In this document: in pieces, positions 2,438-62,032 of the stretch
Layout: each line of letters opens with the position of its first letter
How positions within the stretch are numbered: position 1 is the first letter of the stretch
Assembly: GCA_947034885.2 (NCBI GenBank)
Contig: OX344755.2
Span: forward strand, 11,224,501 to 11,288,500
Length of the DNA stretch: 64,000 bases
Source: Thuidium tamariscinum
Lineage: Eukaryota > Streptophyta > Bryopsida > Hypnales > Thuidiaceae
Direction of reading: 5' to 3'
The notes under the pieces: generated by a model
Told to the model about the DNA's origin: nothing
Database searches by the model: none
What the model saw: the letters and a program-made list of their open reading frames with translations, nothing else
Program-made: the position numbers and the translations under genes

Positions 2438-2860
2438 TAAGGGTGATTGCAAGAAGCACTTGTCCTATTTTTTGTCCCCTTCATCTCAAATAAGAGTTTT
2501 TTTGTTAATAACTTTTGCATTGTTTGTCTGTTTTCTATTAAACTTGAAGTGAAGGTACATGTAATAGCTAAAGATGTCAAGGAATTTTTTGGATTCTATT
2601 AAAACTATATTACTCTTTTTAAATAGCCTCAATTGGATGTCTACCTTGACCATTTTTTTAATGCTATGTTTAACCCAAAATGAAAATTTAAAGCTCAAAA
2701 TTGGCATATAAGGACTTCTATTGTAGTTAAACAAGATTGCAAAGAGATTGTTTAAAAATAATAAATTGTTCACCTTTCATATGTGCTCAAAGTGCACTAC
2801 CTTTGCACAAGTGTAGAAAATAAAAATTTATTTTTACAAAGATGAAAACCATTGAGAAGG
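2438..2860. mobile_element. Family J repeat, partial copy 1
   Basis: The left end GGGTGATTGCAAGAAGC matches both termini of the complete J element at 43498-44226. The following 400 bp aligns with that copy in order, including TAACTTTTGCAT, GTGAAGGT and CTCAAAGTGCAC-like segments. The right terminus is not found, so the copy is truncated. The 95-codon minus-strand ORF in this stretch is repeat-derived. A C-rich run (about 2924-2946) follows. Confidence 0.6.
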
Positions 2861-2923
2861 AGAATCTTCAAGTTAAGAAAGAAAAAAAATTTTGAGAATT
2901 TTTTTAGTTTTTTTTACTATTTA

Positions 2924-2946
2924 CCCCCTCCCCCCCCCCCCCCCCT
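2924..2946. repeat. Homopolymeric C tract
   Basis: A run of C bases with a single T interruption. Its exact length is likely unreliable in assembly. Confidence 0.8.
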
Positions 2947-3592
2947 CAAAGTATCCATTTTGGGGGGTATTTTCCATCACTATTTGATTGTGCCTAAATT
3001 TTAAAGATAAATTTTTTAGGCTTGAATATTCACACATATGCTTTTCAAATGCTTTACAAATTGTCCATATTTTATTTTATTTAAAAAATTTTAATCCAAA
3101 AGTAGTAGTATCCTAGTATTGAGGCCATTTTGAGCCAAAATCAATAAGTGTTTGTTGCAACAACTCTTAATCTAAATCTGTCAAAAGTGTCAATAAATTG
3201 TTCCTTTAATTAGTCGTGATTAGTTGATTGGTGTTTTTATGAGATTTTGGTTTCAAATTCAACTCTATGATGGTTTTAGAAGTTAAGGGATCATGCACTT
3301 TGAAAATTCATAGAAATTACATGTTGAATCAATAAATTAGAGTTAGTTGTAAAGTGATAGCAATACAGAACCAAGAGTTGGAGTTTGGAATAAAGTCAAA
3401 AACGAAATTCCTTGAAGCACCCAAACTAAGGTCTAATGGAATTTGGTACTGTGTTTGTTTTCTATTATTCTTAGTTAATCATTTTGTTGACACCAATTTC
3501 CAAACACAAGACCAACTTTATGATTATCTCTAATCCCTCTGTTTTTAAATTTATGATCTTCAAATGCTTATACTACACAAATATTATTTTCA

Positions 3593-4046
3593 ACACACTA
3601 GTAGAAAACTGTGCAGATTTCAACACAAGCAACCTTACATTCTTGTTTCCTGGAACACAAAAACATGAAGTTCAACGCAAATTTTGCGTTGAGCTTGATG
3701 TTTTTGTGTTACAGGAAACAAGAATGTTGGGTTGCTTGTATTGAAATCCACACAATTTTCTACTAAAGTAGGTACACCCAAAAAAGCCACTTATTCATAC
3801 TGAGCCTAGTTCCTGCTATTAATTAGTTCAAATTTTTATATAGTCTTGTTGGCAAGTGAGAGCATGTTCCAACACACCAAAGAATGCAGGATTTGGATAT
3901 CGTATGCAAAAGTTATTAACAGTCAAAGTCTATTTCTGAAAGCGCCATCTACAATCTGTGAACATGACTGATTTCGGAAATGTATGTGCACTGTAGATGG
4001 CGCTTTGAGGAACAGGGCACTTTTGGGTGTACCTACCTTAGTGACA
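3593..4046. mobile_element. CACTA-type foldback MITE with 3-bp target duplication
   Basis: The element starts CACTAGTAGAAAA at 3596. Its right end is TTTTCTAC + TA at 3756-3765, continued by GTG at 4041-4043 after a nested insertion. Removing the nested element restores TTTTCTACTAGTG, the exact reverse complement of the left end. Direct repeats ACA at 3593-3595 and 4044-4046 form a 3-bp target duplication, as known for CACTA (En/Spm) transposons. The 168 bp between the ends form a nearly perfect hairpin centred near 3682. There is no transposase, so it is non-autonomous. Confidence 0.88.
3764..4040. mobile_element. Family A TA-flanked MITE, copy 1
   Basis: TA at 3764-3765 and 4039-4040 flank a 273-bp element with ends AAGTAGGTACACCCAAAA and TTTTGGGTGTACCTACCT. 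An internal inverted repeat carries AGCGCCATCTACA and TGTAGATGGCGCT. Family members are at 22521-22798, 27146-27428 and 40955-41230, with fragments near 23.3 and 52.6 kb. It lies inside the right terminal repeat of the CACTA MITE, so it is the younger insertion. Confidence 0.9.
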
Positions 4047-4110
4047 TTTGGTGCCTCCAACTATGCTGAATTGCTTGTATTGACATCTTTAGGTGTTTCC
4101 ACCATATCCA

Positions 4111-4837
4111 ATCAACCTCATCATGTGGTGTGCAGTGTTTAGGAAACTTTTTGAGTTTTACAGGCTAGTTTCCTTCAATTCCCAAATTGAACCGTTTTGT
4201 CAAGCATGTTGTCTACTTATTCCCTACTCAATATAGAAATTTTGTAGATTTTTCCACCAATTTTTGCTGATATTTTCAAATTGCAACCTGGTTGTTTTTT
4301 TCCAGCTAACTTCGAACGAGCTGCTGGTTTGTTCCAATATATCATCGGTGGTGTGGTGTTGCAGCTCAGCAATTTGGCTAATAATTGAGTACATTATCTC
4401 ATCTGTGAGAGCAGTAAAAAGTAAAAGTAAGAAATTGTCAATGGCAACAGATTAGTTCATCACAATTTGAACCTTTCTTCACAAAAAAAAAAATGTTTGA
4501 ATTATGGGAGCTGGGGGAGCCAAATCCAAACACCAGTCTACATTGACTTATGGCAGTCCAACAAAGACTTTCAAACTTATTCTTGACTTTGATTGCAACA
4601 ACCATAGGACTCATGCATCATAGCCAGAGGTCCGTCCTAAAAAGCCATGGATGGGCTCTCCAATTGGTTTTTGTACTATTCTAGAGTATGTGAAGGAAAG
4701 GAACTTGTGACTCCAAGTTCCTTACAGAAAACAAGGTTTGACTTAATCCAACCAAAAGGAAATGGGAATGGCATACTATATGAAAAATAGTATGACTTGG
4801 GGACCACGGACGCAGATGAAAAAAACCACCATATTAG
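4111..4837. other. Intergenic DNA without a gene
   Basis: Somewhat less AT-biased than its surroundings. The 63-codon ORF at 4264 has no recognisable domain and I do not support it as a gene. No terminal repeats were found. Confidence 0.5.
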
Positions 4838-5750
4838 TTAACCCCTAAAGTTTTTCACTATTTTTTCACTAAAAATGCTCCAAATCTAGCAATTCAAGTA
4901 CAAGTATGGGAGAGGCACCCAATGGCGCACCTGCACCCAATGCCGTCCATTTCTAAGTCAGTCGTTCATTCAAGAACAAAAATGTAATGGTATTGTAGAC
5001 TGCTTATTGTTTTAGGTCAAAAGAAATAAGCCATGTACTGCCTACCTACATTTATAGCCTAAAATGATTGTGTGTTGTAGAAACAGAAGGCATTGGGTAC
5101 AGGTGCACCATTGGGTGCCTCTCCCTTACCAACTTTTAGGGGAAATTTTTTTTTGGACTCTTGTAACTTTATAATCTTGTTGCAAATTGGTTTGACAAGA
5201 TGTAGGGAAAAAATTCAGAAATTACTATCATGTAGATTACAAAATATTAGCATTCAAATTGATCAATATCCTTTTTCTTACCTTGCAAAAAATCAAGTAG
5301 CTATACTTCAAAGGGTCACATTTGTATGAAAAAATGTCCAAAATGGTGGTTACCCTTTAGATTTGTTCTTCAAAACAATTTGGCTACATGTTTGAAAATT
5401 TTCAAATCTTTTGAAATTTACAACATATAGGTTAAAAATAGTAAATAGAAGAAAATATAGAATGATTCAAAATACTGAACTAATAAATTTTAATTTATGA
5501 AATAAAAAATGCCAATTTCAATTATCGCAATATAAACAATCTATACCTATTGTTTGTTTTTTAAAATATTAAAAATTGAATAAAATAAAGGACTTCAACG
5601 TTTATCTTAGAGTAGAGATTTCATAATTACCTACAAACTACTCACAAACTAAAACTCCTCATAACTTTCATTCCATTATTTAAAAAAAGAATGATTCAAA
5701 CATTTCTAGGCATATAAAAATCTAATCAATCAATTTCAAATTTTGATTTC
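4838..5750. mobile_element. TTAA-type repeat half with nested MITE
   Basis: It begins TTAACCCCTAAAG. From about 5135 on it matches 57.2-57.87 kb in the same orientation and the right half of the element at 36599-37531 in the opposite orientation. Shared segments include TGACAAGATGT, GATTCAAAATACT and ATAACTACCTACAAACTA-like words. The matching right terminus is missing. A family M MITE interrupts it at 4915-5128. Confidence 0.6.
4915..5128. mobile_element. Family M TA-flanked MITE
   Basis: TA duplications at 4915-4916 and 5127-5128 flank a 210-bp element. Its inverted termini read GGGAGAGGCACCCAATGG and CCATTGGGTGCCTCTCCC. The inverted repeat continues inward through GCACCTG and ACCCAATGCC for about 40 bp. 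This is the only copy in the window. The 78-codon ORF that begins in its right arm is incidental. Confidence 0.82.
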
Positions 5751-9771: not shown

Positions 9772-9940
9772 TAAGGTAAACAACCTCATTGTGGTCAAAA
9801 TTGGAGCAAGCCCATTGTGGGTAAAATTGTCATGGTGGTGTTCATTGTGAACATGAATGGACACCACCATTACAATTTCACCCACAATGGGCTTGCTCTA
9901 ATTTTGACCACAATTGGGAGAATGGGGGTAGTTTACCTTA
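9772..9940. repeat. TA-flanked foldback (near-perfect 169-bp hairpin)
   Basis: The outer ends read TA|AGGTAAAC and GTTTACCT|TA. The inner arms, from about 9801 and 9904, pair over roughly 50 bp around GAGCAAGCCCATTGTGGGT, CATGGTGGTGT and ACACCACCAT, with a loop near 9848-9862. It has the form of a very short TA-target MITE that would transcribe into a long hairpin. Confidence 0.8.
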
Positions 9941-17820: not shown

Positions 17821-20322
17821 CTGAATTCTAGACTGACGAACTTCTGCAACTCAATGTGTCAAACTGGTCCCGGATTGAGCTAAATTACAAAGGATGTGAG
17901 TAAATCTGACCTTCTTCAAGTGAATAAATCTCTGTAACTCAATATGTGAGACTGGGCCAGGACTGATTGAATGAGAGAGGTTCTACTATATTTGCAATCA
18001 GAGATCCCCAAATGTTCTGCGAGAGGTTTGGAACATAAGGTAAACCAGCCTATGCCAGGCAAATTGACTAGTTTGCCATCTTGACACTTTTTTAAATTAA
18101 AATTTTTTTTTCCACAAAAAGACAAACATGAGAAATGGAGAGAGCAACTGAAATTTTGTTTTTTTGACAAAGTACAAACTGTTAAGTATTTTTGAAGTCT
18201 GCAGCCCGAATGATTCAAAACAATCTCTAGACTACCCCAAAATCATCAAAAAAGAGTGCTCATAATGGTCGTCAGATCACCTAATACAGTTCCAATATTT
18301 CCTAACACGGTTGCAAAGTTTTCTAACATGGATATGACATAATGAAAGCAAAAAATTAGTTTTTATAATGACTTTACATTGGAAATGTGGAAGTTCCTAA
18401 ATCCATTTCTAATAACTCCATGACCATCACACAAAGCATTTAACTCCGCAATTAATCTTTCTAATGAAGTCCTAACCTCATTAACTAGAAAAAATCTACC
18501 ATCAATTGATAGAAAACTATAATGAGTTGTTTTGTAAATGTCTGCATTAGATGGCTGGCCCATCAAGGATTGGTTTACCTTATCCTAGTCACACCAAATA
18601 GAGGGCATTTTTTTCACTGTCACCCTTGAGAACCCCAAATCCACCATGTTGGATCCACCTTCATTGATAGGATTTAATACCTTGCCTAGGAACTTGTCCT
18701 AGGATAGAATGTAGTATCAACACATCCCTTGTAGTATACTCATCCCCCTAGATGTCTTCTATTTAAGATGTGCTTCAAAGAAACATCTTACAGTGGAGGT
18801 CATCGATACTACATCTATTCCCTTATCCTATTCTGGGGTTTCAATTGATGCTTTTATAAGTTAGATGAATAGAAGATTGTATTTTGAGGGGTCTTCTTGA
18901 CCATCTTGTTCCCCATACATTGATCAATCCTCTAGGCTAGGTATTTCATCGCACACGTTCTTTAGAGAAAACGGCTTCATTAGGGAGCAAATCATCAATC
19001 TCATCTACACATTTTATCAGATAACGCAACAACACTTGTTAACCCTAAACTCATATTCTTCATGTGCTTGGTACAAACTTTTCACATAGGAACATGATTT
19101 GGGGTATCACATCTCGCAACTTCTAGTATGAGATTTTGTTAGTTCATTTCACATTGAACTCTATGCAATTCTAAGCCCCAAAATCTTGTCTTAGAAATAC
19201 TACTTTGGGGTGGCAATTCACACTTGAGAATTGCCTCTTTTTGTGGGATGGAAAGCTCCCCTTTCAACACTCACTCTTAGAAAGCACTTTCAATCGCAAA
19301 ATCCTCTTCATTTCCATCTTGGATTTCACATAGAATTTCATAATCTTGTCTAAAATCACCTCGTAAAAGCATCTCCACCCGTTCATGCCAAATCATATGA
19401 TATACACGGAAATACATGAAAGTAAGCTTGCCCTCTTCCAAACATCCTTCAACCAGCTACCCTTGAAACTCATGTCCTTTCCAACAAAGTTTAGTTTGGA
19501 TTACATAACAGATTGCAATTGTGCTAAAAAAAATCTTATCCTTATAATTGGTCCATCAAATGTTTATTGATCACATTTGGTAGGTGTGGACCTTGGATCT
19601 AACAGCTATTTGATCCAACTTTTTTTTCTTTTTTTTCTCACCTTTCATAGTGTTGAAGGCTTAGATTTGGTTGATCACATTTGAATTTAGGGTTTAAGAA
19701 AAGCAATCCATCTTCTCAATGTATTTGGTCCATTAAACATTTATTGATTTCATTCCACTTTTCTTCAATTGGAGATTAGAATTTACATCTTGTCGAAGAA
19801 CAACTTCTTGTATTGAACACATTTGGGGTCTCTAGTTGCCTTCCCTTCAAAGTACATAGATTCTAGATGTACCCTCAAATTTCGTAGTAGAGGAATTTTA
19901 CAATACGGGTAGTCACAGCTTCTTTCAACAACCACATTTCACAAAAGAACGAGGAAAAACAAGGCCCTTTTGAGAGACAATTAGCATGAAGGAGCTATGA
20001 TATTCCTCTCTAATGTAGTGAGGCATGCAAAATCGAAATCTTGCAAATGCATTCACTAGCTTTTACTTCATCGGTGAGATCAGCAACTTTGATGGTGGGA
20101 TCAACAACTTCAGGAGCAAAAGATCGAAGTTGGGGTAACAACTTCACTCACGAACAGTTCTCCACACCCGTTATTCACCTTTGGAGCATAATAACGGAAG
20201 CTTCGAAGCCTTCGTAGAACAAGAATATTCCTTGGCATAGGGCTGCACGAGGCCCAACCATCCATCACCACGACGTGATTTTCCTGCAAAGTTCAACTTG
20301 GCAAAGAAGCCGTGACTAGCCT
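17821..20322. other. Intergenic DNA with one protein-like fragment
   Basis: No complete gene is supported. The minus strand at 18363-18566 reads a 67-codon ORF with ordinary amino-acid composition (for example LSIDGRFFLVNE and SLERLIAELNAL). It has no recognisable family and no flanking exon that I could join. The stretch 19.9-20.3 kb is less AT-rich but broken by stops in every frame. Confidence 0.35.
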
Positions 20323-20619
20323 TAAGGTAGGGGGCTGTAATTGCAACCCTGTCTCTAAAGCAATCTGGTAGATTTTGACTCTAACATGTACCAGACGTGT
20401 ACATTTCAGGAGAGGGTCGCTTTTAGAAACCACTATATTTTCAACTTCAAAAATTCATAACTAATTCCATGAAGGTCCAACAAATATGAAACGACTTGGG
20501 TTAGATGCCAATTCCATTTTTCTTACCATGAAAATTTACTAAAAATTGTTTTAAGGAGTTTAGCTTCCCCAAAATGCAAATCAGCTGGTAAAGGGTCGCT
20601 TTTACAGCCCCCTACCTTA
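20323..20619. mobile_element. Family C TA-flanked MITE, copy 1
   Basis: TA at 20323-20324 and 20618-20619 flank inverted ends AGGTAGGGGGCTGTAA and TTACAGCCCCCTACCT. The inverted copy at 53236-53531 aligns throughout. The interior carries the module around TTCATAACTAATTCCATGAA and GACTTGGGTTAGATGCC that recurs in families D and E. Confidence 0.87.
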
Positions 20620-20954
20620 TTGAGATTCTTTTCCTTCGGAACGCATGCCTTTGCACTCTCCTCTTGAACTGTGGTTTCACAACAGGCCCCCCTGCCCCCA
20701 GCCGAAGTGGAAGCAGCCAGCCCTGCACACAGACTCCAAGCACGCCGATCGCCTGCGGGCTGTGTAACTTACTCTTCCCCCGACCTGGATTGGGAGATGA
20801 CTGCTCCAGTTCGCTCTGAACGAATTGGAGTACAGGTACTCCTTTATTTGTGGAAAATAAAAATAAAAATTTAAAATAAAGATGTTGGTGTGGGCCTGTG
20901 GGGCTGCCTGGGGGGCAAGGTGAGTTTATCACGGCAGCCGAATTGTTGTCAGAG
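20620..20954. other. GC-rich patch between two MITEs
   Basis: A locally GC-rich segment with an AT-rich insert near 20850-20885 lies exactly between the C element and an E element. Two ORFs on opposite strands cross it but neither is recognisable. The GC-rich arms around an AT-rich centre recall family G, but I found no matching terminal repeats. Confidence 0.35.
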
Positions 20955-20956
20955 TA

Positions 20957-22114
20957 TAGGAGAGGGCTATAGGTTTTTGCACTTGTCCACTAAGAGGCTC
21001 TGAAATGGATAGTTGATTGTGAGAAAATGACTTGTGGATCAAGGGAGGAGGTCCATAAACCGACCATCTAAGGGCCGGAACAGAATTTTGGGCAGGTGAA
21101 ACATCTTAAAATGTTTTTCAGTGAACTTTTCTAGAAAGACAGTTTGAATAGGCATCTAACCCAAGTCGTTTCATATTTTTTGGAGCTCTGTAGAATTAGT
21201 TATGAATTTCTAAAGTCAGTATGGCATAGGGCTTCAAAACCGTCCACCCCTTCAAATGTTCACTGTTTGTACATTACTGTAAAGATCAAAAAACATCATG
21301 TACCAAAAATATACATTTCAGAAGGTGAGCGGTTTTCGAGCCTGAGTGTTTTTGAGCCTCCTCCCTTACATTGAAGCATACTAAGATGTGGTTTATACTA
21401 ATTGAATGGATGGTTTCAGAGTCCCAATGGGTTCATTCCACAATCTAGGAAGAAATTTTAGCTTAATCAATTAAAATCCAACATTTTCTTGCACCAACCG
21501 GTTGCTTGCAGAATACTCTCATGTAAGCCTTAAGAAAATAAAGAATATTCTTATTTTTTCCTCTAAAGTAATTAGATTTTTTCCTGAAATTTTGAACTTC
21601 ATTTGGAAATTTTGGATTTCAACCGTCTAACTTGTAACTAAATGCCGGTACTCCCCGTTCATTGGTTCACTCCTAACTAAGTGGATAGTTGTTTATTGAT
21701 TATATTCAAAATAAAAATTGGTTGTTGAACTACCTTCTTCCAAGTATTAAAAAATCTGAAGTAATGATTTATTCAAGCATTCATTTCAATTTAGAAAGGG
21801 ATGCATTTAGAAACAAATTCTATTACTTTTAATATGTTGCAATGCTAGTTTTTGAACCAAGCAAGATTTTTTTTCAAACTGCATATGTATGAGTTTGCAA
21901 GGCCTACCGATCACAAATAGGCCCCTATGCTAAACTGTGTTTGAAAATTCATAACTAATTCAATAATGCTTCAAAAAATATGAAATGACTTGTGTTAGAT
22001 TCCTTGTCTATTTCTCCTTGACTGAAAAATATGTTAGAAATATTTCCATCTCAGGGAATACATGGAAAAGGCAAATCAATTCTTAAGTGAGCGGTTTCTA
22101 AGCCTCTTCTCTTA
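20957..22114. mobile_element. Family E element, copy 1, with nested D
   Basis: It starts TATAGGAGAGGGCT and ends AAGCCTCTTCTCTTA. Copies at 30312-31143 and 32322-32926 share the same order: TGAAATGGATAGTTGATTGT, TTCATTCC, AGCATTCATTTCA, GCAATGCTAGTTTTTGAAC and TTCATAACTAATTCAATAAT. Without the nested D insertion it is about 830 bp. It has no coding capacity. Confidence 0.75.
21040..21368. mobile_element. Family D MITE nested in E
   Basis: The ends AGGGAGGAGG and CCTCCTCCCT are flanked by CA (a mutated TA) at 21040-21041 and TA at 21367-21368. The same E site is uninterrupted (GGATTACATTG) at 30401-30411. Other D copies are at 31632-31972 and 34542-34871. The interior contains the module shared with C and E, here in reverse orientation. 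Confidence 0.88.
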
Positions 22115-22520
22115 TTTGGGGTCGTTAGACAGTGGTAATTACTGCCACTTTTTCTTCTTCTTTTTTTATAACAAATTGCATTAACCCCTAAACGACACTG
22201 GAAACATTTTATGGTCAATGAACAAGAGAGCTTTTTGTAGTACAAGATAAAACTCCAAACATTCATCTTCATAATTAGGGGTGGAAAAGAAAGATTTTCT
22301 ACAATTCTTTGGCTTCAAATGCACACTTTTGGATTTTTTAATACCATTGATTCCCATGGTTTCAGAAAAGATGGTTTCCTAGGTGATCCTCTGCATTGTT
22401 TAAGGATTAAAAAGAAATGAGAAATACAGCCAAGCAACAAAGCTAGACATAAGAAGCGAATAGAGGGGAAAAAAAACACGAGCCCGCAATCCACTAACTT
22501 ATGGCCTTTCGGATGCCAAC
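22115..22520. other. Intergenic DNA with a TTAA-type terminus-like motif
   Basis: TTAACCCCTAAACGAC near 22181 resembles a TTAA-family end, but no partner was found. No gene is supported. Confidence 0.4.
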
Positions 22521-22798
22521 TAAGGTAAAAAGTGCCAAAAATTAGAACTGGGCTTTGTTACTACTATTAAGATATTCAAATTTTCAAAATCTTATTGGCA
22601 AGTGAAAGCTCATTCCAATACATCAAAGAATGCAACATTTGGATATAGAATGCAAAAATTATTATTAAAATCACAAAAGGTCTAAGTTTGTTTCTAAAAG
22701 TGCCATCTACATTTTATATACATTACTGAATTTGGAAATGTACGTAGATTGTAGATGGAACTTTAAAGTCAATTGTGATGTTGGATGTACCCACCTTA
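22521..22798. mobile_element. Family A MITE, copy 2
   Basis: TA|AGGTAAAAAGTGCC at the left and GGATGTACCCACCT|TA at the right, with the internal inverted repeat CCATCTACATTTT and TTGTAGATGG-like halves. It aligns throughout with the copy at 3764-4040. Confidence 0.8.
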
Positions 22799-23319: not shown

Positions 23320-23525
23320 AGATTTTCATATTTTTCTTATTGGCAAGTGAAAGGAGGTCCCTACACACCAAAGAATGTAACATTTGGATACATATGCAAA
23401 AGTTAGGAAGGAACAAAAGTTAGGTTTTAAAGCAATTTCTTCTGTATAGATACAAAATTGATTTTGGAGATGTATTAAGTGAAAATTGCAGTTTAGGGTC
23501 AAAGGCACATTAGAAGGGCCAACAT
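23320..23525. mobile_element. Family A fragment
   Basis: The left-half A sequence (TTGGCAAGTGAAAGGA, CACCAAAGAATGTAACATTT, TGCAAAAGTTA) is present, but the terminal inverted repeats are lost. Confidence 0.55.
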
Positions 23526-25829: not shown

Positions 25830-26537
25830 GTCAAAGTGGCGATATTTCATTTTATCGTGGAGCTCCAAATCTCAACATTCATTCATATATTGGATAGAAA
25901 ATATCATATGAGCACATAATACATATCTATCATTCTATTTTTATCCATTATTAGGCAATTTCATCCACTATTTAAAAAAAATTGGAGTTTATTGGCGATT
26001 TCATCCAAAATTTTACTATTTTTTTCCTATAGGCTTGGTGCTAGGTCAAAAAATTTGGTGCAATTTTGCACCAAATCGCCAGAAAAAAAACCCCTGGTAT
26101 GGACTTCCCACTCATTCCATCACCACAAATGTTTGCATTAGTTCTTGCATAAGAGCAAAACACCCATTTCCGCACATATTCCTTGTAGTAAATTGTAGAT
26201 TCACCCAAATGCGTCAGTAGACTTCCCATAATGTGTTCGCCACATGTATAATTGTAATTTGTTGACACAACTGAAGGACATATAGGGAAATTAGGTTGGC
26301 TGAGTGCTAATTTTCGCAGGGTTCAATTTTGGGGGCACCTATAGGACGGTTCCATAGGTTTAGGGAGCCAATACTTTGAAAATTTGTAGAAATTACATAT
26401 TGTATCCGAAAAATCTAATTTTTTTTTAATATTCATGATTTTCACTCGCTAATACTACAAAAATATCAGTTTTAGAAAACATTGCCTCCAACTATGCTGA
26501 ATTCCTTATTTGGATGGTTTTGGGTGTTTCCACTGTA
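25830..26537. mobile_element. Family B element, long copy 2
   Basis: Left segments (TTCATTCATATATTGGATAG, GGCAATTTCATCCA) match 48.87-49.05 kb. From 26115 on it matches the shorter B copies (CACCCATTTCCGCAC, CAACTGAAGGACA, AAATTTGTAGAAATTACATA), ending TTGGGTGTTTCCACTG|TA. It is therefore either a longer B form or a B element joined to another repeat, and the same junction occurs in both copies. Confidence 0.65.
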
Positions 26538-27145
26538 TACCATTGTCAACAAAGAAAACATAGTTTTCTTGCCAATCTTGTTTGAAGACAAGCATATCTG
26601 ATAGGACCATATGTGATAAAAGTAATTTACCATTCATGCTCATAAAATTTGGTCTTATTAAAACATTGAGTCATTCAAGATGACAAATTGCAGGATTGTA
26701 TGGCCTGTTACAACCAAAAAAAGTTGGAGAGGGTAGTCAAATCATTCCTTCCTTCTTAACAAGTAGAACAAAGGAGAATTTAAGTATATCAATTCCAAGG
26801 AAATAGAAATGCATGGGGATGGTATTGGGGTCATCTTTCTATCCTTAACCAATAGAATAAAGAGGGCTAATATTCTTCAAGACAATAGAAGAAATTCAAC
26901 AATGAAGGTCAAGATTGACAATTGTCGTTAAGGGGGAGATTTTCATAATTATAATCTATCTTGGAGTATTTATCAAAAAATATGGTATGGTGGAGGGAGG
27001 GAGGGACCCTAAGACGGTTCCCTAAGAAAATGAATTAATTTAATCCATAATTTCAAATGCATTAGAAGACAATCTACCATTATGAATGGCTCATGATATG
27101 TGCTTGAAGTTGTGTGGAGAGATCTATAAAGATCTATTGTAGAGG
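26538..27145. other. Intergenic DNA without a gene
   Basis: No ORF or repeat is supported. Confidence 0.5.
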
Positions 27146-27428
27146 TAAGGTGGATATACTCCAAATTGCACCATGCCCACAACCACGATTATCACTATGT
27201 GTACATCTCCAAAAGCAATGTCCATGTATGTTAAAGAAATGATTTTGAAACATCTACCCAATAAACATTTATCTCATCAAAAACTTTTGCATACAATATC
27301 CAAATATTATGTTTTTTGGTAAGTTGAAATTCCCTTTACTTGCCAACAAGAAAAATGAAACTTTGATCAGTCTAATAATAGAAAATAGGTACATAAGCTA
27401 AAGTGATGGTTTGGGGGTACCCACCTTA
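27146..27428. mobile_element. Family A MITE, copy 3
   Basis: TA|AGGTGGATATACTCC at the left and GGGTACCCACCT|TA at the right. The interior aligns in reverse with copy 1 (CAATATCCAAATATTATG, TACTTGCCAACAAGA). It is more diverged than copies 1 and 4. Confidence 0.7.
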
Positions 27429-28849
27429 GTGTAAATGGTCAAGTAATTCAAGAACAACGAGTTTATTGTTTAAATGTCCCATTTAGGATGTAACTTATCA
27501 TTGATCAACTTGTGGGCTCAGAAAGAAAGATTGCTCGAAATCAAAGACCAGTTTTCATTTCAACTTTGCTTCAACCTCTGAACTGATAAAAATACCAAAA
27601 AACTATGGCATAAGAAAGAAAATGTCAGGCTGAAAAGTCATTATTTTATTTAGTTGGGGGGCTCAAATCAAAGAAATCATTTGCACAAGGTACATTGCCA
27701 AAATGGTTTGATTTATAGACTAATAGGTATATTTCTAATTTCTATAGTAATCTTGAAAGTCATCCATTGGACACTTTTTGGCCTCATCACTCATACTCAT
27801 GGTATAACATACAAACACTCTCAAGAATTTTTTTTAAATTTTAATACATGGAAACACTTCTAACTACACCATGCTAGTGTCCAACACAAGTTCAAACAAG
27901 TTATTGTTATATAACTTGCTTGAATGGACTTTGCACAATTGGAAGTCAAATTTCAGATTTCAACTTCAATTCTAACACCTCTTTCTTGTCCAACGTGGAA
28001 TATAAATTTCCACAAACCTAGTTCTTCAATTATTTTATAAATGAACATTGACAAAACTAGTGAATGAAGGCATCAACTTTAGCAATATCAATACAAGACT
28101 ATAAAGATATCTCATGTCTAAAAGATTGCCATGAATGAAGCATTTGATGGGGAATGGCTCAACTATCTAAGCATCATGGATTAAGATGGCAAATTCCATC
28201 CGTAATGCCTCAATCAAGAAGTAAACCTTACAATAAAGAACCAACTATGGTGGCAAATACCATGCCAATGTCTAAATTTGAATTCATGACCACCTCACCA
28301 GTTTGCCAAAGGCATGGCTATTGGAGCCAAGGTCACCAGGGCTATACAAGAACACATACTATGATACATTGCAAATAACATCTTTTTGAAGTTTCTTTTG
28401 CAAGAAGGTATCTCTTTTTGTGGGGATATATAACTTTGTTCTTACATCCATTTAATTTCCAAAGCTTGAATTGCTATTTGTATAATTTGACTAGATTGGA
28501 GGTAGAAATCAAGGCACCAAGCTTTGAAGTTAAATAAATGCGCCATCATACTTCCAAATGTACATTGGCTTTGCAAGTAATTGATCAATTTTTCTACTAA
28601 TGTTTGAAATTGAGTGGCATGTGGCAACCAATGAATGAGGTGAAACAAGGCAAGAAGTGGAGGATAATTTTAGATAATTATAGTAAGTCATATTGATGGG
28701 AAAGAAAGTGGGCTTTGCTAATTCTAAGATCAAGGAAAGTAGAGAAAAGGAAGGACTATTAATTTCTATAATATAGTCTAATACTTTGAAAGCAAACATG
28801 ACATGAAGTGACCATTCTTCAATGTATCAAAAGTATACACTTCAAGAAG
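27429..28849. other. Intergenic DNA without a supported gene
   Basis: ORFs of 68-89 codons occur on both strands but show no domains and overlap each other. No shared repeats were recognised. Confidence 0.45.
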
Positions 28850-29045
28850 TAGTCACTTTTAGTGACCATTGTATTTGACCTTCAAAAATGTGTAACTAAT
28901 TCCACAAAGTTCCAAAAAATACAGAACAATTTGGTTTGGATGCCAATTTTATTTTTCTTCCTATTTAAATTTACTTAAAATTAATTTCAAGGAATTTTTC
29001 TTCCTCTAAAAGTCAATCAGCTTATAAATTGTTGCTTTAACCCTT
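28850..29045. mobile_element. Family C remnant
   Basis: The C interior is recognisable (GTGTAACTAATTCCACAAAG, GGTTTGGATGCCAATTTTAT, AATCAGCTTATAAATTG), but the terminal repeats are decayed. Confidence 0.55.
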
Positions 29046-29272
29046 AAACAATGTGGGGGTTCATCTAAGAAACCATCCTTTCTAAAACCGTTGGAATCAT
29101 TGGTATTCAAAAATTCAAAAATGCGCATTTGAAGTCAAAGAACTGTAGAAAATCTTCCTTTTCTACCCCTAATTCTAAAGATGAATGCCTATAGTTCTAT
29201 CATGTATAGCAAAACACTTTCTTATACATTGACCATGAAATGGCTTCAGGGTCTTTTTGGCATAAGTGATTT

Positions 29273-29550
29273 TTTCGGGGCTCTAAGAGACTGTTTTGAG
29301 TGTCATTCACCAATATGTAAACAAGTCATTGCTAGTCAAATTAAAAAATAAAAAATAAAAATAGAAATAGAAATAATGAAATTAAAAAATTTAAAATTAA
29401 AAAATAAAATTAAACTATTAAATAAATATTATTATCTAATGTGACAGTCTTTTGGCCACATCAGATCGCTTGTGTGGCAGATTTCAGCACGTTGTGGCAC
29501 ATTTCAATCCAGGAACTCGTGGTCTTCCAATGCAGCCAAAAAACCTCTTA
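29273..29550. mobile_element. Family G element, copy 3
   Basis: TA|AGTGATTTTTTCGGGGC and GCCAAAAAACCTCT|TA are imperfect inverted ends. The centre is an A-rich low-complexity tract (29340-29410). The palindrome AATGTGACAGTC, TTTTGGCCACATCA follows at 29439-29465, a diverged form of the module in copies 1 and 2. Confidence 0.65.
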
Positions 29551-30250
29551 TGGGTTAAGAGCAGACTATCTTGACCAAAACCATGTTGGCTCTTTCTCCA
29601 CCCAAACCCGCCACCTACACCAATTAGATATCGAATCTGGGTCCAAGCATACAAACAAAGCCTCAGTGGTTGAATCCTTCCATTCTACAGTGCACAGCAT
29701 GGATAGTCATCCAATGAAAATATTGAGACAATCCTTAGATTCAGGAGAACAAAAGGACCCCAGCATTGGTTAACAATGTTATGTCCTGTATAAAGTATTA
29801 ATTGTTAGAAGACATAGCAAATTAATAATAACTCTTTGAGTGAACCATGTTTTTTTCTGGCGATTTATTGCCAGATTCCAAATCTGATGTGCCACTCTAT
29901 GTGACCCCCTCCAAATATTGCCCTCTGATAGGAGACTTTTTCCTGTTCATCTACAGTGCAAAACCCCCCAAGGCCCTTCATCTCCTACACTAGTCTGGTA
30001 GGAGAATGTAAGAAAAGGTAATTGACTCCATTACCTTATGGACACAACTTTTGGATAAGCCCATTGCAGGCACAGTTCTTTGCCATGTCCGATTTCACAA
30101 TATCATACTAACATGTGTACATAACAGGAATTTTTGCCATTTGGGGTCTCCAATTGGCTTGTCCAAACTTCTGCCTGATGGTGGTTGTATTTTACCCTGG
30201 CAATGAAATCCTGTTTCATTCCATGTGTTTCAAAAAAAAAAAAAAAAAAT
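29551..30250. other. Possible poly(A)-tailed retroposed sequence
   Basis: About 680 bp of less AT-rich, apparently single-copy sequence ends in a run of about 18 A at 30232-30249. The strand and the poly(A) end would fit a retroposed transcript or the 3' end of a LINE. I found no reverse transcriptase and could not identify a target duplication. The 110-codon ORF at 29441 runs from the G element into this segment and is unrecognised. Confidence 0.3.
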
Positions 30251-30311
30251 CATGTTTCAATTGATTAAAAAAACAAACAAACTTGTGCTTAGAATGGATT
30301 GGGTTAACCTA

Positions 30312-31143
30312 TAGGAGAGGGCTCATCAATCGTGCAAGCTTTTGCACTTGTCCACTAGGAGGTTTTGAAATGGATAGTTGATTGTGAGAAAATGAATTGT
30401 GGATTACATTGAAGCATCATCAAAAAAGTTGGGCCAGACTATTTTGGTCCTATTTTGACATCAAAGGCTACATTTTGATAATATAGGTACCATTTTCTCC
30501 ATATTGAGTTGGTATGGGGGTTGGCACCAAATTTACTTGATTGCATTTCAATGCACCATCATGGCACTATATTCACATGCCTTGAAGTTCTTGATGATGC
30601 AAAGATGTGGTTTATACTAATTGAATGGATGTTTTCAGAGTCCCAATGGATTCATTCCTAACTAAGTGGATAGGTGTCTATTGATTATATTCAAAATAAG
30701 AATCGGTTGTTGAACTACCTTCTTTCAAGTGTTAAAAAATCTGAAATTATGATTTATTCAAGCATTCATTTCAGTTTTAGAAAGGGACACATTTAGAAAC
30801 AAATTCTATTACTTTTAACATGTTGCAGTGCTAGTTTTTGAACTAAGCCAGATTTTTTTTCCAAACTGCGCATGTATGGGTTTGCAAGGCCTACTGATCA
30901 CAAATCGGGCCCTATACTAAAGTGTGTTTGAAAATTCATAACTAATTCAATAATGCTTTAAAAAATATGAAATGACTTGTGTTAGACTACTCATCTATTT
31001 CTCATTGACTGAAAAATATGTTAAAAGTTTCATTTGTTTAAAAAATTAATTAAAAAACAAGACTAAAAATATTCCCATCTCAGGAAATACATGGAAAAGG
31101 CAGACCAGCTCTTACATGAGCGGTTCGTGAGCCTCCTCCCTTA
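30312..31143. mobile_element. Family E element, copy 2, with nested F
   Basis: It begins TAGGAGAGGGCTCATCAATC and ends GTGAGCCTCCTCCCT|TA. It aligns with copies 1 and 3 except for about 187 bp at 30414-30600. The uninterrupted D target (GGATTACATTG) is at 30401-30411. Confidence 0.78.
30414..30600. mobile_element. Family F insertion in E
   Basis: The inverted ends GCATCATCAA and TTGATGATGC enclose a segment absent from the other E copies. It is repeated at 38245-38440 (CCATTTTGACACCAAAGG-like, GCACCAAAT, TTTCAATGCACCATCAT, TTCACATGCCTTGAAGTTCT). Confidence 0.7.
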
Positions 31144-31631
31144 CCTTAATTGGGCAGAACAAGTTACTGTGTTTTAACAAATTAAAAAGAAGAGAAAAAT
31201 CCTTACAGTTACACTAACTGAGTGTTCAGTTGCTGTGTTGCAATTCCATAGAATTTCTACTAAGCTTATGATAAGTTATTGCCTGTTGCATTCCCCGATG
31301 GAATTTCTCAATGCTCTACAGTATCTACTGTAGAAGTTCACTGATTATTCTAGGAATGTCATAGTTTGCAGAAATAAACAGTACACTAGTTCTGTACGAG
31401 AGGGTTTGAATATCGCTTAGGCTTTTGAAACCACCCGTACTGAAGTTTCCAAAATCATGCAGAAGGTTGACTAGAAGAAGAGAAGATTTTTGTTGTGGTT
31501 GACAATTGAAAAGTGTGAGCAATTCATAAGTTCTCTGCACATGGATCTACTAACTGTAAGGAGTGGTCTTTGCTACAAAAAGAAATGAAATTAGCTGTAA
31601 GAAGAGGCAAAGTGCACTTAATGAAGTGCAA
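31144..31631. other. Intergenic DNA without a gene
   Basis: ORFs of 65-71 codons on the minus strand are unrecognised. No repeat was found. Confidence 0.45.
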
Positions 31632-31972
31632 TAAGGGAGGAGGTTCATAAAGCGCCCACATAAGAGCTGAAACTGAATCTTGGAGCAGTGAAACTTCTTG
31701 AAATATTTTTCAGTAAATTTTTCTTGAAAGACAAGAAGAAATGGCATCTAATGCAAGTCATTTCATATTAATTTGGAGGTTTTTGAAATTAGTTATGATT
31801 TTTTGAAGTCCAAATGGGGTAGCGCTATAAAACTGTCCACATCTTGAAATGTAAACTGTTTGCACATTCTTGTCAAAATAAAAAAGAAACATGTACAAAT
31901 GGTGTACATTTCAGGAGGTAGGTGGTTTTAGAGCCTGAGCAGATTTTGAACCTCTTCCCTTAATATCTTTAT
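31632..31972. mobile_element. Family D MITE, copy 2
   Basis: TA|AGGGAGGAGGTTCATAAAG and TTGAACCTCTTCCCT|TA are inverted ends with TA on both sides. It contains the shared C/D/E module and GTGTACATTTCAGGAG. Confidence 0.82.
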
Positions 31973-31989
31973 GAAAGTGGGAAGTGCAT

Positions 31990-32274
31990 TAGATGTTTTT
32001 TGACCCCTGCAGAAGACTGTTCCAGTGCTGTTCCCCCGCAGCTGTTCCCCGCAGCGAGGGGAGCGGCCTGCTGTCAGATTTTTTTATTTTTTTATTTTTT
32101 TATTAAAAAAAAAAAATTAGTCTTCAAATACAAAAAAAAAAATTTTTTTTTTTTTTTTTTTTGGTCGATGACGTGGCAGTCTCTCGGCCACGTCAGACCG
32201 CCTTGCCGAACCTCGCCGAACCTGTTCCCTGCTGTGATAACTCGCAGTCTTCTTGACCCCTCAAAAAACTTCTA
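31990..32274. mobile_element. Family G-like MITE, copy 4
   Basis: The ends TTAGATGTTTTTTGACCCC and GACCCCTCAAAAAACTTCTA are inverted, followed inward by AGAAGACTG and CAGTCTTCTT. The arms are GC-rich, and the centre is nearly pure A and T (32078-32162). TGACGTGGCAGTC, CTCGGCCACGTCA at 32169-32195 is the best-preserved copy of the G/H palindrome. It lies between a D and an E element. Confidence 0.78.
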
Positions 32275-32321
32275 ATGAATTGAATAAACACATGCAATGC
32301 ATGCTTGTAGAAAAACCATTA

Positions 32322-32926
32322 TAGGAGAGGGTTCTAAAACCGAGCAGGCTTTTGCAACCATCCAGTAGGGGCTTTGAAATGGACATGTGAACTTTGGAAA
32401 AATGAACTCTGGATTACAATGGAGCTTGATGAGATTTGTTTTCACTTCTTCAATGGATGGTTTAAGAACCAGACTTGGTTCATTCCTAACTAAGTAGCTA
32501 GGTGCCTACTAATTTAATTCAAAATTAGAATTCATTGTTCAACTTCCATCTTACAAGTATTGAAAAATCTAAAATGATGATTAAATCAAGCATTCATTTC
32601 AGATTTTGAAAGGGACACTTTTAGAAACCATTTCAATTACTTTACACATGTAGCAATGCTAGTTTTTGAACAAGCCCTGATTTTTTTTCAAAATATGCAT
32701 AGATGGGTTTCCAAGGGTCTATGATCACAAATAGGGACCTACACCAGATTGTGTTTGAAAATTCACAACTAAATTAATAATGCTTCAAAAAATGAAACAA
32801 GTTGTGTTAGATTCCTCATCTATTTATCTTTGACTAAAAAATAAACTAAAAATATTTTCATCTCATGAGATATATGAAAAAGGCGGATCAACCCTTAGAT
32901 GAGCGGTTTATGAGCCTCCTCCCTTA
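32322..32926. mobile_element. Family E element, copy 3 (no inserts)
   Basis: It begins TAGGAGAGGGTTCTAAAACC and ends ATGAGCCTCCTCCCT|TA. It carries neither the D nor the F insertion and so defines the uninterrupted structure of about 605 bp. Confidence 0.8.
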
Positions 32927-33427: not shown

Positions 33428-33816
33428 TACGGTGGAAGCACCCAAAACCGTCCAAATAAGGAATTCAGCATAGTTGGAGGGAGATTTTTGTAAAACTGAT
33501 ATTTTTCTAGTATTAGCGAGTGAAAATCATGAATATTGAAAAAAAGAAATAGAATTTTCGGACATTGTATGTAATTTCTATGTTTTTTTGAAGTGATGGC
33601 TCCCTAGACCATTGAAAGTGTGCAATAGGTGCACCCAAAACTAAACCCTGCGAAAATCAGCACTCGGCCAACCAGATTTTCTATGTGTCCTTCAATTGTG
33701 TCAGCAAATTACAATCACACATGTGGCAAATACATTAACTGCACTCTAGGGACATATTTGAGTGACTCTACAATCCACTGCAAGGTACATGGATGGGAAT
33801 GGGTGTTTCTCCCTTA
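33428..33816. mobile_element. Family B MITE, copy 3 (inverted)
   Basis: It begins TACGGTGGAAGCACCCAAAA and ends AATGGGTGTTTCTCCCTTA. The interior is the reverse of 26115-26537 (ATAAGGAATTCAGCATAGTT, TGAAAATCATGAATATTG). TA lies at both outer edges. Confidence 0.78.
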
Positions 33817-34541: not shown

Positions 34542-34871
34542 TAAGGAAGGAGGTCTATAAATTAACCATTCAAAGGCTAAACTCAATTTTGAGGAGGCAA
34601 AACATCTTGAAATATTTTTGAGTAAATTTTCTTAGATAAACAAGTGGAATTGGAATCTAATCCAAGTTGTTTCATGTTCTTAGATCTTTGTGGAATTAGT
34701 TATGAAGTTTTGAAATTGAAGTCGTGGAGGGCTCTAAAATCGCCCACACCCTCAAATATACACTATTTGTACATTGTTGAAGGCTACAAAAAAGAAACAT
34801 GTACAAAATAGTGTACATTTGTGGAGTTGTGCAATTTTAGAGTCCAAGCACTTTTTAAACCTCCTACCTCA
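34542..34871. mobile_element. Family D MITE, copy 3
   Basis: TA|AGGAAGGAGGTCTATAAATT at the left and AAACCTCCTACCT|CA at the right, where the second target TA is mutated. The interior aligns with D copies 1 and 2. Confidence 0.75.
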
Positions 34872-35325
34872 CTTGATTTGAAATGTTATTAAGTTCTTAT
34901 TCGTAAACCCTTATAACCTACAAACAATTTTTTAAGTGGCTACCTATCTTTTCTGAGCTATATGTCCTTGAATTTTGAATTTTATATATATAAATTGTGT
35001 CTTAAAAATAGATTGCATTATGAATCCAATGGTTGTAGTTTCATCAAAGTCTAAGTTGAACTTTGCCTTGTAGAATTTTTTAAGTTGAATGGTGTAGTGT
35101 AGTTAATGGCTAATGTTTTTTGGTTAAAATAAGGCATGGACTAAAAAGTCACCCAACCAATGCAATTGTTGGCCACCTCAAAAAAATGAGATTTGAAGAG
35201 CTTAAGGAGAAGCAAAGTGTGCCCTTTTTGTTTCTTTTACATACATTGACCTTTCATTTCAATAGCCATCATGCATTGTAAGCTCCTCCAAAAATTGCAA
35301 AATGACTAAAATGTTGTGCAATCAT
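34872..35325. other. AT-rich intergenic DNA
   Basis: Nothing recognisable. Confidence 0.5.
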
Positions 35326-39164: not shown

Positions 39165-39580
39165 TGACTCAAAACTTAGGAATTGTGTTCAAAGCAAAAA
39201 TTCAAACCTCATTTTGCTATAGTAGAATAGTTTGTTTTTTAAAACTTTGAATTGAGAAAGTTGTAGAATCAAGTCAAGTTTTATCTTCAAAATCTACTTG
39301 AGATTTCATCACTTAGACTAAAAGTTATGGACAAATTTCAAAGAGGGGGTTTGAAAATGTCCCTAAAAATGTCCCTTGCAACCCCTCTCTCAATTTTGTC
39401 TATAACTTTTAGTCAAAGTCATAAAAACTCAAACGAATTTTTGAAGATAAGACTTAGCTTGATTCCACAACTTTTCCTAGTTTAGAGTTTTTTGAAAAGT
39501 TATAATACTATACCAAAATGAGGTCTAAATTTTTGCTTTGAGTACAATTCCTCCTTTTCAAACGACTGCATACTAAATTT
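39165..39580. repeat. Foldback repeat, about 400 bp
   Basis: The left arm carries GAATTGTGTTCAAAGCAAAA, AACCTCATTTTG, ATCAAGTCAAG and CTAAAAGTTATGGACAAA. The right arm carries the complements in mirrored order (TTTGTCTATAACTTTTAGTC, CTTAGCTTGATTC, CCAAAATGAGG, TTTGCTTTGAGTACAATT). The centre near 39360-39385 contains AATGTCCCTAAAAATGTCCC. No TA or TTAA boundary is obvious. Confidence 0.72.
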
Positions 39581-39854: not shown

Positions 39855-40245
39855 TAAGGGAGAAACACCCATTTCCGTCCCTGTACCTATTCCTGGTCCC
39901 TAGAGTGTCACTAAATCTGTCCATGAGCGTTCATTAAAGTGTCTGACAAGTGTTTAACTCTAATTTGTTGACGCAGCTGTAAGACACATGTATAATTTTC
40001 ATTCACTGACAACTGATTTCAGCAGAGTTCAGTTTAGGGTACACCTATACGACGGTTCCAGTGGTCTAGGGAGCCAACTCTTTGAAAATTTGTAGAAATT
40101 ACATACTGATTCCAAAAAATTTAATTTCTTTTTTGAATATTCATGATTTTCTCTCGCTAATACTAGAAAAATATCAGTTTTAGAAAAAGATGCCTCCAAC
40201 CATGCTGAATTCCTTATTCGGATGGTTTTGGGTGTTTCCACTGTA
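39855..40245. mobile_element. Family B MITE, copy 4
   Basis: TA|AGGGAGAAACACCCAT and TTGGGTGTTTCCACTG|TA are imperfect inverted ends. The interior aligns with copies 2 and 3. The 156-codon minus-strand ORF at 40029-40499 starts outside and ends in this element. It is not a supported gene. Confidence 0.8.
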
Positions 40246-40954: not shown

Positions 40955-41230
40955 TAAGGTAGGTACACCCAAAATGGCACCTGACCTTAAAGCGCTCTGT
41001 ACAACATGCATAGATTTTCAAAATCAGTCATGTACCCAGATTGTAGATGGCGCTTTCAGAAACACACTTTGACTGTAAATAACTTTTGCATATGGTATCC
41101 AAATCCATTGTTCTTTGGTGCGTTGGAACATGCTTTCACTCACCAACAAGATTGTAAAAAAATTTGAACAACATAATAACAGGAACTAGGCACAGTAGAG
41201 AAACTGGCGCTTTTGGATGTACCTACCTTA
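40955..41230. mobile_element. Family A MITE, copy 4 (inverted)
   Basis: TA|AGGTAGGTACACCCAAAA and TTTTGGATGTACCTACCT|TA, 272 bp between the TA repeats. The interior is the reverse of copy 1, including the internal repeat TTGTAGATGGCGCT. By eye it is the best-preserved A copy with both ends. Confidence 0.88.
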
Positions 41231-48854: not shown

Positions 48855-49725
48855 TAGTGGCAATATTGAATGTTATAGAGGTGCTCCTAATTTTCAACAT
48901 TCATTCACATATTGATAGAAAATATCACATTAGTATAGTACATATCACATATCCATCATTTTGCTTTCATCCATCAATTGGCAATTTCATCTAAGATTTT
49001 TTTAATTTGAAGTTTTTTGGTAATTTCATCTAAGATTTTATTATAGTTTATGTTCTAAGGTCTTGGTGTAGAGATCATTACTCTGGTGCAAATTGCTAGC
49101 AAATTGGCAAAGGAAAAACACTATTGATGGAAACTGTAGGGATATCACAAATTTATTTTAAGACAGAGGGAGCAATTACAATTCTTTACCTTTAGATGGT
49201 CTACACTACATTTTCACTTCTTGATGTATATGGTGTAATTTTCTATAAGGAAATTTTTGTAATAGGTTTGGAGGCTCCAATTGACTTGAGATTTCTTTTA
49301 GAGTAAGATTCTATCCAAACAATTGCAACATACAATTTTTATTTTTAAAATCATTTTTTAAATTGCTTAAGAAAACTCTTATTAAATTAAAAACACCCAA
49401 ATTGTCCCCATACCCATTCTTTGCAAATAGACTTCTATTAAAAGTGAACCCCCAAGTGTCATTAAATTGTACCAAAATTTGATTGCTAATGATTGATTTC
49501 TGATTTCTCTACATGTCAATTTAAAGACCAAACTATGTAAGAGTTTCATCGGCCTAGGGATTTTCATTATAAAAATTCATAAAAATTACATGCCTTATTC
49601 CAAAATTCTAGTTTTTTCAAACTCATAATTTTTAATTGCTCATACTAAATTTTTATCTTAGAAAAAGGTGCCTACAACCATGTTGCTTTTTTTGATAGTT
49701 TTGGGTGTTTCAACTTTATGCACTC
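48855..49725. mobile_element. Family B element, long diverged copy 5
   Basis: It matches 25830-26537 in order, from ACATTCATTCACATATTGAT and GGCAATTTCATCTAAGAT to GTGCCTACAACCATGTTGC and TTTTGGGTGTTTCAAC. The divergence is higher than in the other copies. Confidence 0.55.
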
Positions 49726-50749: not shown

Positions 50750-51250
50750 TCATCACAATGTACCCAAAAGTGGCGTACCACCCTTGGCCAATTAGTTAGC
50801 CCCCCCTTCTCTCAAATTTTTTTTAGGCCATTGATTGTTTAAAAAAAAATTGCTTACCTTTGAAATTACGGCTGATTTCTCAAAAAATCAAGATCCGTTG
50901 ATCTTGTGAGATTTAATCTAAGCTGTTCAAATACAAATGCAGATATAGTACAATATACGAAATAAGTAGTGAATACTAAATCTATGTACATTTACCAATA
51001 CGGTATAGAATACAAATACAATACATAATACATATATGGATATGAGATACATGATGCATTATCCCATATCGTTTGTCAATGAAGTTGCTTACTGAAAATT
51101 ACAAGAAGGAAGGGGGGGAGGGGATTAAAAAACTTAAAATTTTAAAATTTAAATTGGTAGTTATTGCTACTTTTGGGTACATTGTTCACACAATGTACCC
51201 AAAACAATGTACCCAAAAATGGCAGTAACTACCAACTCCAACATGTTAAG
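50750..51250. mobile_element. Family P repeat, copy 2 (inverted)
   Basis: ACAATGTACCCAAAAGTGGC at the left and GCTACTTTTGGGTACATTGT at the right are inverted ends. The interior reverses copy 1: GATCTTGTGAGATTTAATCT, a degenerate ATACAATAC/ATATGG array (50945-51075), and GAAGGAAGGGGGGGAGG. A second small palindrome (TTGTTCACACAATGTACCC) lies at the right edge. Confidence 0.6.
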
Positions 51251-52560: not shown

Positions 52561-52614
52561 TTGTGGGATCATGAACATCTTTAGCATCAAGCAACAAAAG
52601 TTATTATTTGAAAC

Positions 52615-52775
52615 TTTGAGCCTTCATAACTTTAACATATGGTATGCAAATGTTGTCTTTTTTGATGTGTAGGAACCCCCTTTCACTTACCAAGAAGAAA
52701 ATGAAAAAATTTGATAAGTTTAAAAATAGTAAGTAGAGATGGTAGCTAAAATCAGCAGTCGGTATTCACCTAAAT
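52615..52775. mobile_element. Family A fragment (inverted)
   Basis: TATGGTATGCAAATGTTGTC, TTGATGTGTAGGAACCCCCT and TTCACTTACCAAGAAGAAAA match the A interior in reverse. The terminal repeats are lost. Confidence 0.5.
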
Positions 52776-61779: not shown

Positions 61780-62032
61780 GGATGTGCGACCACGGATGAA
61801 ACGTTGGCTCCTCTCTTACTCCTGTGAAAATGCAACACTTAGAAAACCAAAATGCTCTTGCTTTTCACGATGCAGATTCGCCCCTCCGTGGCCCAAGTCT
61901 GTGGCCTCTACTGCAAGCATAGATCTAATGAGAACGTAATTCAACAATGTAACGTCAATTCTTGCGAAGTATTAGCCTATGATATCAATCACCGCTTCAA
62001 CCTCGATACTCGCGACCGGATTGCAATCCACG

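Follow-up and report, generated by a model that had tools for sequence, protein, structure and literature searches.

Which elements make up the block at positions 3593-4046 of a 64,000-nucleotide stretch of DNA (the window), and in what order did they arrive? An earlier note had read the block as a three-layer transposon nest, in which a TA-flanked element (A) lies in the right terminal repeat of a CACTA element that itself splits a copy of a B family. The letters and coordinates reported for 3593-4046 were all confirmed, to the base, and the A, CACTA and B layers stand; what had been missed is a probable fourth element, D, 191 bp long and lodged in the same B copy. The block is very probably a nest of non-autonomous DNA transposons, with B hit by a CACTA-type element and probably by D, and with A inserted into the CACTA end. 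With D included, the nest probably contains four miniature elements.

Results

A foldback element with CACTA-type ends

The CACTA-type element and its target duplications occupy the following positions.

3593-3595: ACA, target duplication to the left of the CACTA element
3596-3765 (+): main part of the CACTA-type foldback element, which with 4041-4043 has a native length of 173 bp; terminus CACTAGTAGAAAA
4041-4043 (+): GTG, the last 3 bp of the CACTA element, cut off by the A copy (A1)
4044-4046: ACA, target duplication to the right of the CACTA element

The left end of the element (3596-3608) reads CACTAGTAGAAAA and directly follows the ACA of 3593-3595. The main part closes with TTTTCTACTA, that is TTTTCTAC followed by TA, at 3756-3765, and its last two letters (3764-3765) are the TA target of A; on the far side of A1 stand TA at 4039-4040, GTG at 4041-4043 and ACA at 4044-4046. 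Without A and one of the two TAs the right end becomes TTTTCTACTAGTG, which complements the left end exactly, as had been claimed; reverse-complemented, the restored right end reads CACTAGTAGAAAA and aligns with the left end at 13 of 13 positions. The exact 13-mer CACTAGTAGAAAA occurs once in the window; base composition predicts about 0.005 occurrences over the two strands, and none arose in 50 first-order Markov simulations. Two features of CACTA elements are present: inverted ends of about 13 bp that start with CACTA, and a 3-bp target duplication (ACA/ACA), a match that by itself has a chance probability of about 2%.

As a palindrome the element is nearly perfect (9 mismatches over 86 positions), and its inverted arms of 83 nt are 89% complementary. 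For the first 170 nt of the element the folding energy is -108.3 kcal/mol; the mean of the shuffled sequences was -33.6 (z -18.6) and none of 200 shuffles folded as well. At gathering thresholds Rfam gave no RNA family in the window, so that a reading of the hairpin as a known microRNA family is unsupported. Four direct-repeat pairs were detected in 3000-4600, none with both copies inside the element, which at 173 bp is short. No second copy of the element was found by BLAST within the window; the 13-mer recurs with one mismatch at 28590, where BLAST shows no similarity to the element. Viral contigs, scanned for exact occurrences of two ends (18 bases of A and 23 bases of CACTA, ambiguity codes allowed), contained neither, as expected for plant-type DNA.

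Family A targets TA

The A copies with two recognised ends are these.

3766-4038 (+): A1, 273 bp, TA-flanked, with AGGTAGGTACACCC-type ends, the left end with one change
4039-4040: TA, second copy of the target of A1
40957-41228 (-): A2, full-length A relative, TA/TA, in unrelated DNA
22523-22796 (+): A3, A relative whose left end is degraded, TA/TA
27148-27426 (-): A5, diverged A relative, TA/TA

A1 lies within the right CACTA terminus, 3 bp from the right end and with TA on each side, exactly where the earlier note had put it. By BLAST it matches 41230-40955 at 83% identity over 278 columns, TAs included. Together with A1, five other loci found by BLAST bring the A loci of the window to six, apart from further matches within A copies; both ends were recognised at four of the six (A1, A2, A3, A5), and each of these four has TA on both sides, and their outer flanks are unrelated. 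Fragments of the A core, whose ends were not recognised, lie at 23322-23405 (85 columns, 82%) and 52613-52714 (102 columns, 75%).

The ends of A read TAAGGT...ACCTTA, and the TA could therefore be part of the inverted repeat of A itself. This possibility was ruled out, since dropping exactly one TA restores the CACTA 13-mer. A1 is decisive for TA duplication because its target is a known 13-mer, and it supplies an unambiguous 2-bp TA target for a family whose own ends otherwise leave doubt. The proposal that family A targets TA is thus upheld, both by the restoration at A1 and by TA/TA at every locus (4/4) with two ends.

A BLAST match at 27439-27279, which runs 12 bp into the CACTA side of A1, was considered as a second copy of CACTA plus A and rejected; its flank reads ACACTA, without the 13-mer. 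A1 also carries a second, internal inverted repeat near its right end (3930-3953 with 3992-4015; 24 nt, 88%).

The B family and its related empty sites

The interrupted copy, B1, and its main relatives in the window are as follows.

3103-3339 (+): B1, left portion; aligned from 3103 with B4, from 3142 with B3 and from 3244 with B2
3533-3595 (+): B1, middle portion; 3542-3590 aligns with 26423-26472 at 80% identity
4047-4104 (+): B1, right portion, including the right end (GGTGTTTCCACCA), with TA next to it at 4105-4106; 4052-4102 aligns with 26483-26533 at 82%
26150-26537 (+): B2, TA flanks included; related empty site for D and the CACTA element
33428-33816 (-): B3, TA flanks included; related empty site
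39855-40245 (+): B4, TA flanks included; related empty site

In the left portion of B1 the BLAST match pairs 3260-3330 with 26336-26406; the left terminus of B1 was not found, since comparison of 2500-3241 with the left end of B gave 13/22 at best. B4 has the ends AGGGAGAAACACCC and CAGTGGAAACACCC, variants of which occur in B2 and B3, and all three copies have TA on both sides (3/3). A fifth, degraded copy (B5) lies near 49572-49719.

When the flanks of B1 are joined without the insert and with a single ACA, they align through the CACTA site with B2, B3 and B4; this supports the earlier reading that the CACTA element, with its ACA on either side, splits a B-family copy. The junctions and duplications are directly observed, as are these related empty sites, which are imperfect: B2 retains ACA but is gapped next to it, by 3 and by 4 bases; B3 lacks ACA and has two gaps of 2; and B4 lacks ACA and is gap-free at the junction. 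The alignment proposed between the B flanks and 26115-26537 therefore passes through the site but does not hold letter for letter, and the B2 copy itself spans 26150-26537 including its TAs. The imperfection of the empty sites slightly lowers our confidence in the reading as a nest.

The end of A matches the left end of B at 12 of 15 bases and its right end at 10 of 15; random pairs of 15-mers from the window reach 12 matches at a rate of 9e-5, the A/B comparison itself being post hoc. The two families may depend on related transposases.

The right arm of the CACTA element at 3724-3748 resembles the adjoining B1 flank at 4063-4087, over 25 nt with 84% identity and 13 consecutive bases. B2-B5 do not match this stretch (scores of 15-18 vs 30), and the left flank scores 16. 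A score at least as high was reached in 4 of 5,000 random 60-base draws from the window (a few near the nest were skipped) and in 2 of 5,000 Markov 60-mers. The likeness could be due to chance, or it could hint at a short local exchange after insertion.

A probable fourth element

The left and middle portions of B1 are separated by a further insert.

3338-3339: TA, left target duplication of D
3340-3530 (+): D, 191-bp insert in B1 with an imperfect terminal inverted repeat
3531-3532: TA, right target duplication of D

The ends of D, GAGTTAGTTGTAAAGT and GAGATAATCATAAAGT, match at 12 of 16 positions. D is missing from B2, B3 and B4, all three of which align across the joined TA site. TA/TA together with a repeat of at least 12/16 was seen in 58 of 20,000 random intervals of the length of D, allowing 12 bp of slack at the ends, a fraction that is optimistic because the ends of D were picked after looking. 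BLAST gave no convincing second copy of D in the window, the best hit apart from D itself having E 0.033; since neither D nor the CACTA element has a second copy there, both families are recognised only from their structure. As far as can be judged from sequence, D is probably a fourth TA-targeting miniature element. That the TA is a duplication is proved only for A1, by the restored 13-mer, and supported for D by the B relatives.

Effect of A on the CACTA terminus

After insertion of A the outer end of the CACTA element reads CACTAAGGTAGGTACACCC and the inner end CTTTAGTAGAAAA. The outermost pentamer is still CACTA (CACTAAGGTAGGT), since the target TA is formed by positions 4-5 of CACTA and was duplicated, and 6 of the 13 letters equal those of the intact end. 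Positions 6-13 and the subterminal context, on the other hand, were displaced, and the 13-bp match was lost. The claim that a MITE can destroy the terminus that another element needs is an inference: the pentamer was kept, and the CACTA copy has likely lost its mobility.

A TA-targeting element that lands in CACTA in this way necessarily rebuilds the outer pentamer, CAC and a TA staying outside, and it is conceivable, though a very long shot, that it could give the host element a new subterminal region with the terminal pentamer left in place. If this were true, and if such composites were still recognised, it would offer CACTA elements a route by which to swap subterminal motifs.

Order of insertion

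By nesting, B is older than both D and the CACTA element, and the CACTA element existed before A. D and the CACTA element lie side by side in B1, so nesting gives no order between those two. The sequence of events read earlier (B, then CACTA, then A) is therefore strict for B before CACTA and for the CACTA element before A; it is not strict in placing A after the landing of the CACTA element in B. This later arrival of A is nevertheless much likelier than an earlier one, because the 13-bp end is broken by A.

Terminal branch lengths were compared in three triples for each element and amounted to 0.32-0.36 substitutions per site for B1 vs 0.08-0.11 for A1. The triples left out B5 and the two A core fragments; A5 entered as 27134-27426, its 14 extra bases falling in gap columns. 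These lengths fit B as the oldest element. The A1 branch bounds the age of the insertion only from above, and the divergence of the CACTA arms (9/86) is no larger, so that divergence leaves the order of A and CACTA undecided.

It is possible to imagine instead that A entered the CACTA element elsewhere and that the pair then moved as a unit into B with duplication of ACA. The outer right end, CACTAAGGTAGGT, would still provide a CACTA pentamer at both ends of such a composite, and the divergence values are compatible with it; furthermore, a soybean CACTA element is described with three mismatches between its 13-bp ends (PMC2613891), so some change is tolerated. However, the outer end here agrees with the intact end at only 6/13 letters, the same paper terms the 13-bp ends and subterminal motifs cis-determinants (PMC2613891), and the other three A copies with two ends have no CACTA 13-mer next to them (at up to two mismatches). 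Movement as a unit is therefore improbable, and we prefer the reading in which A reached a CACTA element already resident in B.

The nest reading could also fail at either of its single-copy parts. The CACTA-like block might be a palindrome produced by some other rearrangement within B, its ACA match and 13-mer having arisen by chance; the block is indeed single-copy in the window, the empty sites do not fit perfectly where the flanks join, and the 84% likeness of 25 nt in its right arm to the B1 flank hints at local exchange. Against this, a 13-mer expected about 0.005 times in the window stands exactly at both ends, and the 3-bp repeat bounds the block at a point where B2-B4 run on uninterrupted, which leaves such an origin barely credible. 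D, likewise, might not be mobile at all: it could be unrelated filler, or a piece of B that B2-B4 have lost, as its single copy in the window and its imperfect inverted repeat (12/16) would allow. This is rather unlikely, given that B2, B3 and B4 lack D and align across the joined TA, and that TA/TA with such a repeat is uncommon by chance (58/20,000). The reading of the block as inserted elements, with the CACTA-type element and probably D lying in B, is thus the one retained below.

Other features of the window

The window contains 79 dispersed or inverted self-matches, which together with the CACTA end suggest that it comes from a plant nuclear genome. Further long palindromes lie at 9788-9914, 39178-39552, 4904-5129 and 51154-51235, with 72-89% self-match, and are possibly other foldback elements. 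Other dispersed repeats, in several copies and both orientations, were seen at 20322-22411, 28822-32926, 34542-34876 and 53236-53532; the longest close matches among them have 91-92% identity over 299 and 376 bp.

No tRNA was found in the window by ARAGORN. An uninterrupted open frame of 478 aa at 60379-61815 (-) gave a weak match to the Pfam VTT domain (E 3e-5), its 24.9 bits falling short of the curated cut-off, 33.9; four other scanned frames matched nothing in Pfam, and none of three frames matched NCBIfam. The product of the 478-aa frame presumably resembles plant VMP1/KMS1-type proteins and, from its lack of introns, the frame could be a retrocopy.

Discussion

Proposed formation of the nest

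The history that we propose would start from an old, TA-targeting B element as the first layer. A 173-bp CACTA-type foldback element would have inserted into this B copy, duplicating ACA, and D, probably TA-targeting too, would have inserted at another site of B. A, also targeting TA, would then have inserted at the TA that forms positions 4-5 of the right terminus of the CACTA element. For each element the transposase would have acted in trans, from a gene at another place. The insertion of A shifted positions 6-13 of the right CACTA terminus by 275 bp and very probably froze the copy.

The nest is a clean yet ordinary instance of transposon nesting, whose insertion order is mostly readable from target duplications. 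It is a compact record of relative insertion order that leaves the current understanding of transposons unchanged; nested MITEs and related empty sites are already well known.

Comparison with known systems

Published features of CACTA elements include 13-bp ends and a 3-bp duplication (PMC2613891, PMC8978399), and CACTAGTAGAAAA itself is printed as the end of the Jozin elements of Chenopodium (PMC8978399). Binding of TNPD to the 13-bp ends is presented in PMC2613891 as proposed and unproven. The element described here is like small non-autonomous members of the CACTA (En/Spm) group in its end CACTAGTAGAAAA, its 13-bp inverted ends and its 3-bp target duplication. It is unlike CACTA (En/Spm) elements in being only 173 bp long and nearly all palindrome, with no subterminal direct-repeat array seen in it and no transposase. 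Among the matches listed for GGTACACCCA in print, no title was about transposons.

Nested insertions with TA or TTA duplications, some of the elements being near-perfect hairpins, are described for the DcSto Stowaway elements of carrot (PMC3695323). A, B and D resemble Stowaway MITEs, which are of the Tc1/mariner type, in being short and TA-flanked. However, the conserved terminus CTCCCT, as the DcSto motif is given (PMC3695323), is missing from A (AGGTAG), from B (AGGGAG/CAGTGG) and from D (GAGTTA/GAGATA); without this end the three were not filed under Stowaway.

A parallel in approach comes from PIF/Harbinger elements of Medicago, for which RESites (paralogous copies without the insert) and nested insertions are reported (PMC2213677). 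As with those RESites, paralogues without the insert mark the insertion at the present locus. The two cases differ in that other superfamilies are concerned here, and in that the empty sites are themselves copies of a miniature element within the same window.
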